From NCBI RefSeq assembly GCF_000334895.1, contig NZ_BAFM01000010.1, forward strand, positions 62,001 through 126,000: a stretch of DNA of 64,000 nt. Reading direction: 5' to 3'. The notes under the pieces are model-generated. The model did no database searches and had not been told where the DNA came from. It saw only the letters and a list, made by a program, of their open reading frames with translations. Below are positions 24,619 to 62,660 of this stretch, in pieces. The position numbers and the translations under genes were made by a program. Each line of letters opens with the position of its first letter. Position 1 is the first letter of the stretch. The DNA is from Halococcus agarilyticus (GTDB taxonomy: Archaea > Halobacteriota > Halobacteria > Halobacteriales > Halococcaceae).

Positions 24619-25059
24619 ATGAGCGCGCCGGCAGCATCCACGGGGCGGCTTCGACGGGGGTGGGACTACTACCGCCGCTACACGAAACGACGAACCGGCG
24701 TCCACGCGGCGGCAGCAGCCGCCCTGACGGCGTTCGGGCTGCTGGCCACCGTTCACCCCGGATTCATCGCCGTCGCGATCGCGTCGTACCTCCTCCCACC
24801 GATCTACCTCTATCTCACCGGCGATGACCTCGCTAGCGACGAACGAACGGCGACCCGCACCGATCGGGAGGCTCGACGCAGCGCTGTCGGGGATGCCGAC
24901 GTGGATGCGGACGGGAGCGATGGCGACGCTGATGCCGATGCGGACGGCATCGATACCGACACCGATACGGATGGTGTGGATACCGACACCGATGCAGACG
25001 GCACGGACACGGATACGGACTCCGACGGTGCCGACACCGATTCGGACTCGGACGGGTAG
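24619..25059 (+). CDS. Membrane protein with Asp-rich repeat tail
   Basis: The 146-residue protein has a basic N-terminus (RRGWDYYRRYTKRR), two hydrophobic segments (about 30-46 and 48-66, separated by HPG) and then a tail of about 70 residues made mostly of Asp with Gly, Thr, Ala and Ser. The tail repeats DTDTDTDG-like units about six times and is encoded by near-identical GATACCGACACC-type triplets. Such extreme acidity would keep the tail soluble in saturated KCl; it could bind cations. Function unknown. Repeat number probably varies between strains by slippage. Confidence 0.6.
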   Translation: MSAPAASTGRLRRGWDYYRRYTKRRTGVHAAAAAALTAFGLLATVHPGFIAVAIASYLLPPIYLYLTGDDLASDERTATRTDREARRSAVGDADVDADGSDGDADADADGIDTDTDTDGVDTDTDADGTDTDTDSDGADTDSDSDG

Positions 25060-25201
25060 TCACCTCTCGCCCTGAACGGCTCTTCTGACTACCGTTGCGG
25101 GTGTTTCCAGCTGCGTCACCGAGCCGGGCCGAGCGCCCGAGCGACGGGTAAGGAAACGCCTTTGGCCGCCCCACTCTCACCGTCGAGGCACGTGATTACC
25201 T

Positions 25202-25288
25202 CCGTCGTTTCGCGCCGCTCACGACGTGTCTCTGGAGACTGCTGGAGGCCATCGCCGTGAACGCCGTCGTTTCGCTCCGCTCACGACG
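25202..25288. repeat. Paired palindromic 24-bp repeat before the helicase gene
   Basis: The sequence CGTCGTTTCGCGCCGCTCACGACG (25202-25225) recurs as CGTCGTTTCGCTCCGCTCACGACG (25265-25288), with one mismatch in 24. Each unit is itself bounded by the inverted hexamers CGTCGT/ACGACG and contains the GAGCG-AAACG core typical of short haloarchaeal interspersed hairpin sequences. No gene occupies this stretch. Confidence 0.65.
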
Positions 25289-25292
25289 GGCT

Positions 25293-25324
25293 CATGCGAA
25301 GCACCCCAGGAGGTGCTTCGCATG
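25293..25324 (+). promoter_or_regulatory. Perfect hairpin covering the helicase ribosome binding site and start codon
   Basis: A 13-bp perfect stem (25293-25305 with 25312-25324) closes a six-base loop CCAGGA. The Shine-Dalgarno-like GGAGGTG (25309-25315) lies in the loop and 3' arm, and the start ATG (25322-25324) is paired at the base of the stem. Folding would hide both signals from the ribosome, so it may act as a translational switch. A second, out-of-frame ATG sits in the 5' arm at 25294. Confidence 0.55.
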
Positions 25325-27652
25325 AACGTCGCCGAGACCGTCCCCGCGTTCGCCGACGCGTTCGCCTTCGAGTCGTTCAACCGGATGCAGCGCGAGGCGC
25401 TGCCGGCGATTCTGGAGGGCGACGAGAACGTGGTCGCGAGCGCGCCCACCGCCAGCGGGAAGACCGCACTCGCCGAGCTCGCGATCTGCAGATGTCTCGA
25501 TGCGGGCGACACCGCCCTCTTCATCGCGCCGCTGCGCGCGCTCACCAACGAGAAGGAGTCGGAGTGGGAGCGCTTCGAGGACCTCGGCTACTCGGTGTAC
25601 GTCGTCACCGGCGAGCGCGACCTCAGCCCCCGCCGAGCCGAGCGCGCGGACATCCTCGTGATGACGCCCGAGAAGGTCGATTCGGCGACACGGAAGCACG
25701 ACTCCCCCAGATACGGGTTCATCACCGACGTCGCGTGCTGTGTCATCGACGAGGTCCACCTCCTCGACTCCGAGCGCCGCGGCAGCGTGCTCGAAGTCAC
25801 GATCTCGCGGCTCCGGCGGCTCTCGGCACCCAGAATCGTCGCACTCTCGGCCACGATGCCGAACGTCGACGAGGTCGCCGAGTGGCTCGACGCTCCTCCC
25901 GAATCGACGTTCGACTTCGGCGAGGAGTATCGTCCTGTCGAGCTCGAAGCCGACGTTCGGACCTACACCCACGGCGAGAACGCCTTCGCCGACAAGTACC
26001 GCCGGCTGTACCGCGCGCTCGATCTCGCCGAGGAGCACATCCGCGACGACGGCCAGGCGCTCGTCTTCGTCGCCTCCCGCCAGGATACCGTCCGTGCGGC
26101 CGAGAAGGCCCGGGACGAACTCGCCTCGCGGGACGTCCCGATCGGCGCGCGCGGCGACTACGATTTTCATACCGAGACCCAAGTTTTGGAGAACCAGACG
26201 CTCCGGAACTCGGCGCTCGATGGCGTTGCCTTCCACCACGCCGGCCTCTCGAAATCCGACAAGGATCACGTCGAGGAGTGGTTCCGGCAGGGGAAGATAC
26301 AACTCCTCTTCTCGACCTCGACGCTCGCGTGGGGCGTCAACCTCCCCGCTCGGTGTGTCGTGATTCGGGATACGAAATACCACGACCCCCTGGAGGGCGA
26401 GGTCGACATGAGTCCGCTCGACGTGCTCCAGATGCTCGGACGGGCGGGCCGGCCAGGCTACGACGACGCGGGCTACGCGCACGTGGTCTGTGACGGGAGC
26501 GACGCCGAGAAGTATCGTCGTCTGCTCCGCGACGGGAAGGAGATCGAATCGCATCTCACCGCGGACCTCGACACCCACCTCAACGCCGAGATCGCGATGG
26601 GCACGATCGGGGACGTCGGCGACGTGATGGACTGGCTCGAAACCACGTTCGCGTTCGTCCGGGCGCAGAGCAGCTCGAACCCCGACGCGGTCGACGACTT
26701 GCGCGAGGCGGTCCGCGAGACGCTCGCCGAACTCCGGGAGCGTGGGTTCGTCGCGACCGACGGCCTCCGGGTGTCGGCCACACCGTTGGGAACGCTCGCT
26801 TCTGCCTACTACCTCCGGCTCCCGACCGCGAGCCGGTTCGAGGAGCTGGCGGGGGCGGATCCCAGCACCGACGAAATCCTCGCGACCGTCGCCGCCAGTG
26901 CGGAGTTCGACAGCGTGAACGCACGCCAGGCCGAGCGCGACGCGATCGACGACGTGCTCGGCTCCCGTGGAAAGGATCTCGACTCGGGAACCCGCAAGGT
27001 GCTCGCGATCCTCGACGCCAGCACGACCGGTTCGACCCCCACCGAGCTTCGGAGCGACGCGTGGGTCATCCGGCAGAACGCGCTCCGGCTGCTCGCGGCG
27101 CTGCGGGCGTTCCTCGATCGGTTCGGTGGGCCACGCGAGGCGAACCGCGCGAGCCGCGTGGCTGCGCGCGTCGAGAACGGCGTGAGCGAGGCTGCCGCCG
27201 CGCTCACCGCGATCGACGGCGTCGGGCCGGGCCGGGCGAGCAAACTCGCCGGGGAGGGCATCGAGACGCCTTCCGACGTGGTCGCCGCCGGCACCGCGGG
27301 GCTGGTCGACGCCGGACTGAGCGAGGGCGTCGCCGAACGCGTCGTCGAGAGCGCGCGCGAACTCCCCCGGATCGAGATCGAGTGGGGCGAGTTCCCCGAA
27401 CGGATCGCGCGTGGCGAGAACGACCCCCGCGAGGTCACGATTACGAACCACGCCGGCGGCGCGCGCGCCGGTCTCCGGGTGACGGTGAACGACGTCGAGA
27501 TGACCGCGACCGACTCCTATCTCGGCAGCGAGACGGTGCCCGTGCCGGTGTTCGGCGGCGACCCCGATACACTCACCTTCGCTGTCGAGGTGATCTTCCC
27601 CGAACTCCCGCTCGAACCGGTCACCGAAACCAGAACTGTGTGGGTCGACTGA
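25322..27652 (+). CDS. Hel308/Ski2-like ATP-dependent DNA helicase
   Basis: This 776-residue superfamily 2 helicase has the Q-like FNRMQREALP, Walker A APTASGKTAL (about residue 46), DEVH box in VIDEVHLLDSERRG, motif III LSATMPN, and motifs V-VI in STLAWGVNLPARCVVI and QMLGRAGRPGYD. A helix-hairpin-helix stretch (AIDGVGPGRASKLA) and a C-terminal extension with a beta-rich fold follow (about 690-776). Hel308 proteins unwind lagging-strand forks during repair. This one differs in its C-terminal extension, so it may be a haloarchaeal paralogue rather than Hel308 itself. The start lies within a strong hairpin. Confidence 0.85.
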   Translation: MNVAETVPAFADAFAFESFNRMQREALPAILEGDENVVASAPTASGKTALAELAICRCLDAGDTALFIAPLRALTNEKESEWERFEDLGYSVYVVTGERDLSPRRAERADILVMTPEKVDSATRKHDSPRYGFITDVACCVIDEVHLLDSERRGSVLEVTISRLRRLSAPRIVALSATMPNVDEVAEWLDAPPESTFDFGEEYRPVELEADVRTYTHGENAFADKYRRLYRALDLAEEHIRDDGQALVFVASRQDTVRAAEKARDELASRDVPIGARGDYDFHTETQVLENQTLRNSALDGVAFHHAGLSKSDKDHVEEWFRQGKIQLLFSTSTLAWGVNLPARCVVIRDTKYHDPLEGEVDMSPLDVLQMLGRAGRPGYDDAGYAHVVCDGSDAEKYRRLLRDGKEIESHLTADLDTHLNAEIAMGTIGDVGDVMDWLETTFAFVRAQSSSNPDAVDDLREAVRETLAELRERGFVATDGLRVSATPLGTLASAYYLRLPTASRFEELAGADPSTDEILATVAASAEFDSVNARQAERDAIDDVLGSRGKDLDSGTRKVLAILDASTTGSTPTELRSDAWVIRQNALRLLAALRAFLDRFGGPREANRASRVAARVENGVSEAAAALTAIDGVGPGRASKLAGEGIETPSDVVAAGTAGLVDAGLSEGVAERVVESARELPRIEIEWGEFPERIARGENDPREVTITNHAGGARAGLRVTVNDVEMTATDSYLGSETVPVPVFGGDPDTLTFAVEVIFPELPLEPVTETRTVWVD

Positions 27653-28187
27653 TCCTCGGCGTCACGTCGTGACCTCTCGTGGTGTGCTCCCCTCGATCGC
27701 GGACTCGTCCGATAGCGGCGGTGGCCCGAGAGAACCGGGTGTCGGGTGATCCGAGCCGCTATACGGCTGCTGTGCGGTTGCGTGTGGGTGGCGCGCGGCG
27801 AGCGCGCTGCGGTGTGTGAGCGCGCTCGCGCGCGAGGGATGAACGACAGGCGGCGCGAACGAAGTGAGCAGCGAGGGACGCTTCGCGTCCCTCGGGCAGC
27901 CGACGCGAAGCGCCGGCGACGCCGCCGAACGCGCGAACGGGGAGCAAAGCGCCCCGTGAGCGAAGCGAGCGGAGCGAGCGAAGTGAATCGGCTGGGGAGG
28001 CCCGTGGCCCGGGTGCGGTCTGCGGGGCGGTGGCGGTTTTCATTTGTGTCGGCACTCTTGGTTCGTGTCCCGTTCCAATCTACCCAACCTAGTCATGAAC
28101 GAACACTTCGATATCAACTCGCGGTTCGTCTCCCGTTTTGGGATTCGTCATGCAAGCAGCCTACTCCGAGTTCCTGCGGAAACGGGG
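27653..28187. other. Intergenic region downstream of the helicase gene
   Basis: More than 500 bases lie between the helicase stop and the next small gene. The region 27776-28028 holds a hairpin-rich repeat (described separately). The flanks, 27653-27775 and 28029-28187, show no gene-like frame to me. Confidence 0.6.
27776..28028 (+). repeat. Hairpin-rich interspersed repeat, copy A
   Basis: The stretch contains GGTGGCGCGCGG (27787-27798), the AGGGATGA block (27834-27842), GAACGAAGTGAGC (27857-27869), the 9-bp stem CGAGGGACG/CGTCCCTCG (27872-27894), GAGCGAAGCGAGCG near 27958, and TCGGCTGGGGAGG (27988-28000). The first, second and last blocks recur, in the same order and inverted in the window, at 36156-36248. 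It encodes no recognisable protein in any frame and looks like a mobile non-coding element or structured RNA. Confidence 0.6.
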
Positions 28188-61860: not shown

Positions 61861-62640
61861 TCAGCCGTGGCCGAGCAGCACGACACCGCTTCCGAGCAGG
61901 ATCACGCCGCCACAGGTGCCGAGCACCACCGGAATACCCGGCCCCGCCGTTGCCGACCGACAGTGCGACGACCGTCGTGAACGCGACCGGGCCGACGGTC
62001 TGCCCGAGCCGGAGCATGCTGGTTCGGACGCTCATCATGCCCGCACGGAGCCGGCCAGGCACGAGGCCGATCACGGTGCTGTCGAGCGAGGGCGTGATGA
62101 GCCCGACGCCCACGCCGAACCCGAGGAGACAGACGACCACGACCGGGAGCGACGGCTGGAGTGCGAACCCGAGCAGCGAGACGCCGTACCACGCGAACCC
62201 GATCGCGACCAAGACTGGTGGATCGTAGCGCCCGGCGAGCCGACCGTACTGGGTGTTGACCGCCGCGCTGTCGGTCGCGAGCGCGGCGAGGAACAGGCTG
62301 ATCCACCCGCTCGTCAGGCCGTAGGCGTCGCCCAGCACGAACGGCATCGCGGTCAGCACGCCGTAGAACACGAAGAAGTGGGCGAACATGGTGGCGTGGG
62401 CCGCGACGGCGCGCGGGTACGACAGCACCTCGCGCATCCGCCGGAAGTGGGTCCGGATCGACTGTCGCCCGTCGATCGCCGGCTCGTCGAGGACGAACAG
62501 CGCGTAGCAACCCACGAGAACGGCGACGCCGAAGAACAGGAACGGGGCCTCCCACCGGATCGTCGCGAGCGCGCCGCCGTCGATCTCGATGGTGGTACTG
62601 CGGCGCGAGTCGTCGTAGTGGTCGACGATCAGCGTGCTCG
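61861..62640 (-). pseudogene. MFS transporter relic (C-terminal half, frameshifted end)
   Basis: About 200 residues of MFS helices 7-12 are readable from about 62570 down (RWEAPFLFFGVAVLVGCYALFVLDEP, MFAHFFVFYGVLTAMPFVLG, LLGFGVGVGLITPSLDSTVIG). The N-terminal half (six helices) is missing. Near 61945 a one-base insertion shifts the frame; the last helix (IPVVLGTCGGVILLGSGVVL then a TGA at 61861-61863) is read only after correction. Upstream of the first helix the sequence joins the 40-bp palindrome. Such a half cannot transport on its own. Confidence 0.7.
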
Positions 62641-62660
62641 CGAGCACGCTGATCGTCGAC
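62621..62660. repeat. Perfect 40-bp palindrome
   Basis: GTCGACGATCAGCGTGCTCG (62621-62640) is followed immediately by its exact reverse complement, 62641-62660. It sits precisely between the minus-strand MFS relic and the plus-strand M20 relic. Translated outward, both strands give STLIVD, so the two relics share their first residues only because of the palindrome. Confidence 0.9.

Follow-up and report, generated by a model that had tools for sequence, protein, structure and literature searches.

A hairpin over the start codon of a Brr2/ASCC3/Slh1-like helicase gene in Halococcus as the probable last link of a micro-ORF relay

We propose that the hairpin covering the ribosome binding site and start codon of a helicase gene in the window, by which we mean the whole 64-kb stretch of DNA that was analysed, is probably the last link of a relay of micro-ORFs that feeds the helicase by termination and reinitiation. 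Such a relay would explain why the stem lies inside an open reading frame, why the Shine-Dalgarno (SD) sequence and the start codon are in its 3' arm, and why the lengths of the leader units are all 2 mod 3. The hairpin, here called stem B (25292-25325, plus strand), has arms at 25292-25305 and 25312-25325 that are 100% complementary over 14 bp in the window DNA, with the loop CCAGGA; it is one pair longer than the 13 bp given in the earlier note, which had rightly recognized that it hides the SD and the start. The SD-like GGAGGTG (25309-25315, plus strand) lies 6 nt 5' of the helicase ATG (25322-25324), which is itself part of the 3' arm, and both are buried in the closed stem. The assignment of GGAGGTG is based on this position and on the 3' end of the 16S rRNA of the same genome (GGATCACCTCCT / CACCTCCT), with which it can pair as an anti-SD, the computed energy of the duplex being -15.1 kcal/mol.

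The fold over the helicase start is exceptionally strong by several measures. RNA from 25270 to 25350 folds at -36.9 kcal/mol (z = -3.9, with 0 of 200 shuffles as low), only 0.019% of the 36-nt stretches of the window fold as strongly as stem B, and among perfect hairpins of its kind stem B ranks second in the window by length. When the start regions of the 347 genes called in 464 kb of the genome are ranked by fold, that of the helicase is again second; these 464 kb include a 400-kb sample of stretches, and the gene calls are crude. That a local hairpin repeat landed at a start codon by chance is disfavored. The longest hairpin of the window is a 40-nt perfect palindrome with 18-bp arms at 62621-62660 (GTCGACGATCAGCGTGCTCGCGAGCACGCTGATCGTCGAC), which falls within ORFs on both strands, that on the minus strand being transporter-like. 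An intergenic cluster of GC-rich repeats of the GAGCGAAGCGAGCGGAGCGAGC type, with hairpins, lies downstream of the helicase at 27790-27990, and similar repeats, which are not uORFs, lie upstream of EF-2 in other Halococcus (L124, L128). The gene upstream of the leader encodes a C-terminal acidic D/T/S repeat (DADGIDTDTDTDGVDTDTD..., window 24900-25060).

The leader contains two micro-ORFs in tandem on the plus strand, each of 22 codons. Micro-ORF 1 (25192-25260, VITSVVSRRSRRVSGDCWRPSP-stop) ends in a TGA that overlaps the GTG of micro-ORF 2 (25257-25325, VNAVVSLRSRRAHAKHPRRCFA-stop), whose own TGA at 25323-25325 overlaps the helicase ATG to give ATGA, so that the distance from start to start is 65 nt twice over (GTG25192 to GTG25257 to ATG25322). 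GGAGGTG is thus within the upstream ORF, and the quality of the SD differs among species. Stem B forms the 3' half of micro-ORF 2, and a second stem of the unit, stem A (25265-25288, plus strand), pairs CGTCGT at 25265-25270 with ACGACG at 25283-25288. Micro-ORF 2 scores 88.8 bits against a covariance model that was built from these same units. The second reading frame of the unit is equally stop-free, the sequence being GC-rich; an open frame alone is therefore weak evidence for micro-ORFs, and we rejected it as such. The second ATG that the earlier note saw in the 5' arm (25294) proved not to be the relevant upstream start, since the micro-ORF that overlaps the helicase begins at GTG25257.

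In the mechanism that we put forward, a ribosome would enter leaderless at GTG25192, translate the 22 codons of micro-ORF 1, stop at the TGA overlapping GTG25257 and reinitiate on micro-ORF 2. Because stem B is within micro-ORF 2, the ribosome translating it would melt the SD/start hairpin and come to a stop at the TGA overlapping ATG25322, that is, on the helicase start itself, where the exposed GGAGGTG would aid reinitiation on the helicase by the same ribosome or small subunit. The closed stem would keep other ribosomes off the helicase start by preventing internal entry, and the output of helicase would then reflect the chance of passing all of the hops. The translational coupling assumed here is suggested by the layout of the leader together with published experiments in Haloferax. 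Specifically, in Haloferax volcanii a premature stop in the upstream gene left the overlapping downstream gene untranslated in nine of nine pairs, and SD motifs are used at overlapping gene pairs in haloarchaea (PMC6728339), while gaps near 20 nt almost abolish coupling in Haloferax (PMC10666635). As to what the relay is for, our guess is that it keeps the output of helicase low or makes it track translation.

The relay is present in the source genome, whose nearest named relatives are H. morrhuae and H. thailandensis, and in the nine further genomes of the genus with which it was compared. In all ten Halococcus leaders there is an unbroken chain of RTGA overlaps through one to three units of 18-22 codons, the stop/start overlap is 4 nt at every unit junction, and the units measure 65, 62, 59 or 53 nt, all of which are 2 mod 3. 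The hairpin-type units, 12 in number, align gap-free. On its fixed axis stem B has 9-14 of its 14 positions paired in the downstream units, compared with 2-9 on other axes, and most first units are without it. For both stems over the 12 units, 91.3% of cells pair (98.6% for stem A), and two-sided changes occur in 12 of 20 pairs, ten of them among the 14 of stem B and two in stem A. Two-sided cells number 43 over both stems, where shuffles give 14.2 and slid controls 4-9; some of the units compared, however, are paralogues from the same array and so not strictly orthologous, and these counts do not represent independent events. Compensatory change in homologous leaders, which the earlier note had named as a check, is accordingly found. 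The changes in stem A, for example GTC GTT ... TCA CGA to GTT GCC ... TCG CAA, couple one synonymous change with one amino acid change, and the half of the peptide encoded by stem B varies, whereas pairing and ends are kept; it is therefore structure and ends, not the peptide, that look constrained. Maintenance of a palindrome at the level of DNA could also produce two-sided changes. The three units of one genome, G004, resemble single downstream units of different species. At the helicase start of three Halococcus genomes stem B is weak (-9.7, -10.2, and -13.3 kcal/mol), so a strong hairpin is not indispensable: the overlap is universal in the genus and the strong hairpin is not.

The site at which the ribosome is proposed to enter is indicated by a BRE/TATA-like promoter element (25150-25165, plus strand, AAGGAAACGCCTTTGG), in which AAACGCCT begins at 25154, 38 nt before GTG25192. 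The spacing between this element and the first start codon is 37-38 nt in all ten Halococcus leaders, and most haloarchaeal loci encoding the helicase have an AAACGC[CA]T motif some 35-38 nt 5' of their first start codon; since spacings of 33-40 nt were searched, the range is partly by construction while the clustering at 35-38 is not. From this spacing the transcript probably starts at GTG25192, and micro-ORF 1 would then be leaderless. Among the 80 helicase loci compared, of which 12 had no promoter match and were left unclassified, we distinguish three arrangements. The helicase itself starts at promoter distance in Natrialbales, Halorussus, and others; an N-terminally extended helicase does so in Haloarcula and relatives; and in the third arrangement a short ORF stands at promoter distance and overlaps the helicase start by 4 nt, with Halococcus representing its multi-unit form. 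This short ORF has 17 codons in most Halorubrum, 19 in Haloferax, 12 in Halogranum, 15 in Halegenticoccus, 19 in Halobellus, and 9 in Halohasta, and it occurs in others too. Wherever a scored locus has a first ORF other than the helicase (27 loci, with first ORFs of 9 to 43 codons), that ORF or a chain of ORFs reaches the next start by a 4-nt overlap (27 of 27). Outside Halococcus the hairpin at the start following the uORF is weak, with a median of -9.7 kcal/mol compared with -5.9 for direct starts. Several Natrialbales loci that were at first labeled N-extended are really direct starts, the label having come from a GTG that immediately precedes the ATG.

The gene that the relay would feed (25322-27652, plus strand, 776 aa) was labeled Hel308-type in the earlier note, and we correct this annotation: it encodes a single-cassette Ski2-type helicase with a Sec63 unit that is Brr2/ASCC3/Slh1-like and not Hel308. 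Both Hel308 models fall below their cut-offs (NF040935, 246 bits versus 1200; PRK02362, 368 versus 887), and the closest solved proteins are ASCC3 (490 bits), Brr2 (487), and Slh1 (481), with Hel308 at 234. The Pfam matches are Sec63 and SNRNP200_wHTH, the Brr2 winged helix, and the 50 best fold matches listed for the predicted structure (pLDDT 81.8) are Brr2 or spliceosome entries, with Brr2 at the top. The 776 residues hold one helicase cassette, the eukaryotic two-cassette tandem being absent. The true Hel308 is a paralogue on contig C9 of the same genome (G000:C9), which even as a fragment scores 986 against the PRK02362 cut-off of 887.

The alternative that survives best, and which we regard as possible while rating it below the relay, is that the units are palindromic cassettes which arose at RTGA junctions by insertion or tandem duplication, are tolerated because coupling is kept, and do not regulate this gene. 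It differs from the relay in the purpose that it assigns to the units and not in the passage of ribosomes through them. The number of unit copies, which varies from one to three, is in keeping with it, as are similar units before SirR, rps19, and moeA genes, the existence of empty sites, and the occurrence of ATGAGTTCT at both ends of the filled rps19 copy. Against it, every one of the ten Halococcus genomes has kept the relay, and in other families a simpler uORF overlaps the start of this helicase, which means that uORFs occur at the gene with or without hairpin units.

The inserts at other junctions deserve description in their own right. Within the genus, all matches of more than 56 bits to the R1 covariance model of the units lie in the helicase leader. 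The best match elsewhere (47 bits) is an ORF of 20 codons which, through RTGA overlaps on either side, bridges a ferritin-like gene and the gene of a DtxR/SirR-like regulator, both names being read from sequence only (bridging micro-ORFs at G000:C1:137246-137651; homologues L166-L174; L153, L133). In other Halococcus this junction is bridged, again with RTGA overlaps, by a single ORF or two ORFs of 10-20 codons, and the source genome has a bridging ORF of 55 codons with a hairpin of -26.0 kcal/mol, the strongest start fold of the 347 genes. Another family has rpl2 and rps19 overlapping by ATGA in five species, whereas two species carry between the genes an insert of 62 or 59 nt, which creates a bridging ORF of 21 or 20 codons with an SD hairpin and repeated ATGAGTTC (L207/L212, G153:C1:178146-178211; L213, L219-L223); ATGAGTTCT stands at both ends of this insert, as a target-site duplication might, but the context of a start codon constrains part of the letters. 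In a third family, a pair of moeA-type genes overlaps in two species, while in four the pair is set apart by inserts of 80, 83, 131, and 191 nt, all 2 mod 3 and with RTGA at both ends (L279-L285, genus of G076). Filled and empty sites in close relatives are thus found at the rpl2-rps19 and moeA-moeA junctions, not at the helicase leader. That the inserts at both junctions preserve the overlaps speaks for the relay.

The inserts at these three junctions may represent one mobile family, local duplications or convergent designs, as the similarity among them is modest and partly forced by shared signals. Near-identical dispersed copies were absent from the model scan of the genus, and the scan of the class gave few real cases. 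The lower-scoring Halococcus matches, among them those preceding EF-2, are GC-rich repeats between genes and not relays, and the same applies to three of four class-level matches. In a scan of 97 genomes, the counts of the pattern CTCAYG..GGAGG..CRTGA are near those of the reversed-pattern control, which gives no evidence of abundance. Bridging micro-ORFs seemed to be enriched in the gaps of operons (8 against an expected 1.04), but we discarded this result; the gene calls are crude, and the shifted control needs no real stop codon, so that the expected value is biased low. Pattern matches picked by eye for their hairpins, which include the moeA case, also gave a start-covering SD hairpin before an ACR3-like arsenite permease, together with a 20-codon upstream micro-ORF (L265, G056:C4:68441; this genus is represented by one genome), and another before a MoxR-like AAA ATPase (L264, G047:C1:589033). 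In a gene like that of the nitrate reductase beta subunit (L209, G151:C1:318959-319025), 63 nt at the 3' end are repeated in tandem and in frame, and this repeat contains ATGAGCGACC and the GC-rich repeat motif. We offer, speculatively and with the odds against it in our own estimate, the idea of a haloarchaeal family of short insertion cassettes specialized for stop/start overlaps. Each cassette would begin with a copy of the junction (RTGA...), carry a micro-ORF in an insert of 2 mod 3, and end in a hairpin with its own SD and an anti-start arm; on entry or multiplication it would leave coupling unbroken and add a tunable, lossy hop, and before this helicase, whose relatives ASCC3/Slh1 split ribosomes, the relay could even feed back on ribosome recycling.

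A translational switch of the kind suggested in the earlier note, in which an RNA thermometer or a salt- or protein-controlled hairpin stands alone and melting allows de novo initiation at the SD, is unlikely. One part of that suggestion holds, in that the stem sequesters the SD and the ATG and pairing is maintained in most species. Melting by heat, salt or protein finds no support: the stem is within a micro-ORF whose stop overlaps the helicase start, an overlap conserved in all ten leaders of the genus, and the translating ribosome is the simplest melting agent. In addition, some Halococcus are without a strong hairpin, the SD had no effect and was not needed at the Haloferax 5'-UTR tested (PMC3986360), and a stem of -25 kcal/mol would presumably make a poor graded thermometer. 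A search of the leader region against Rfam gave no relevant family at E values up to 5. We think it very improbable that the element acts on DNA, as an operator palindrome or a transcription attenuator controlling the helicase promoter. It is a near-perfect DNA palindrome and attenuation would use hairpins too, but the arms differ strongly among units, unlike those of an operator, more than 100 bp separate the stem from the promoter element upstream of it, no U-tract follows, and unit lengths preserve the frame and the RTGA ends. Equally improbable is that the helicase really starts upstream and that the hairpin is ordinary coding sequence, for although its frame is open to an in-frame GTG25226 in this genome, that codon is not at leaderless distance from the promoter element, 6 of 10 Halococcus leaders have no in-frame start before the ATG or have one only at -9, and near the place of GTG25226 (-96) only one other leader has a start (-87, G005).

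The essence of the proposed relay is that it would be a variation on termination-reinitiation coupling, which is itself known. Since haloarchaeal transcripts are mostly leaderless and coupling needs overlaps, a relay would offer either a route to translational control or a way in which inserts are tolerated with the operon unbroken. Micro-ORFs of this size are below the usual limits of annotation and would be missed by standard gene calling. With one to three copies at one gene and filled and empty pairs at two junctions, one could measure directly in Haloferax how efficient each hop is and what the hairpin contributes. We found no description of micro-ORF relays or of overlap-preserving insertion cassettes in the openly licensed papers searched.

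Several known systems share parts of this design. Short palindromic inserts that keep reading frames open are familiar as the Rickettsia palindromic elements and as MITEs; the units described here differ in that they sit at start/stop overlaps with an SD and an anti-start arm, and they are known as insert-like sequence only. In the translational attenuation of ermC by its leader peptide, translation of an upstream ORF opens a structure over the downstream initiation region. Upstream translation likewise opens such a structure in the structure-dependent coupling of bacterial atpHA and others cited in PMC6728339, where local structure over the junction was also suggested for E. coli pairs. In contrast to atpHA and ermC, the micro-ORFs of the relay are serial, with overlapping stops and starts, the first is probably leaderless, and there is no known inducer or stalling peptide. 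In Haloferax volcanii, a survey of uORFs was confined to UTRs of 150-250 nt and lists 16 cases of 15-31 aa (Babski et al., 2016, PMC4983044); these are short leader ORFs like those described here, whereas most of our uORF leaders are shorter and the stop/start overlap is the distinguishing feature. Closest are the overlapping gene pairs of Haloferax volcanii (Huber et al., 2019, PMC6728339; Huber et al., 2023, PMC10666635), which have the same 4-nt ATGA/GTGA overlap, the SD in the upstream ORF and a haloarchaeal host; there, both partners are ordinary protein genes, whereas the helicase leader has tandem ORFs of 18-22 codons, strong hairpins that cover the start, and insert-like copies elsewhere.
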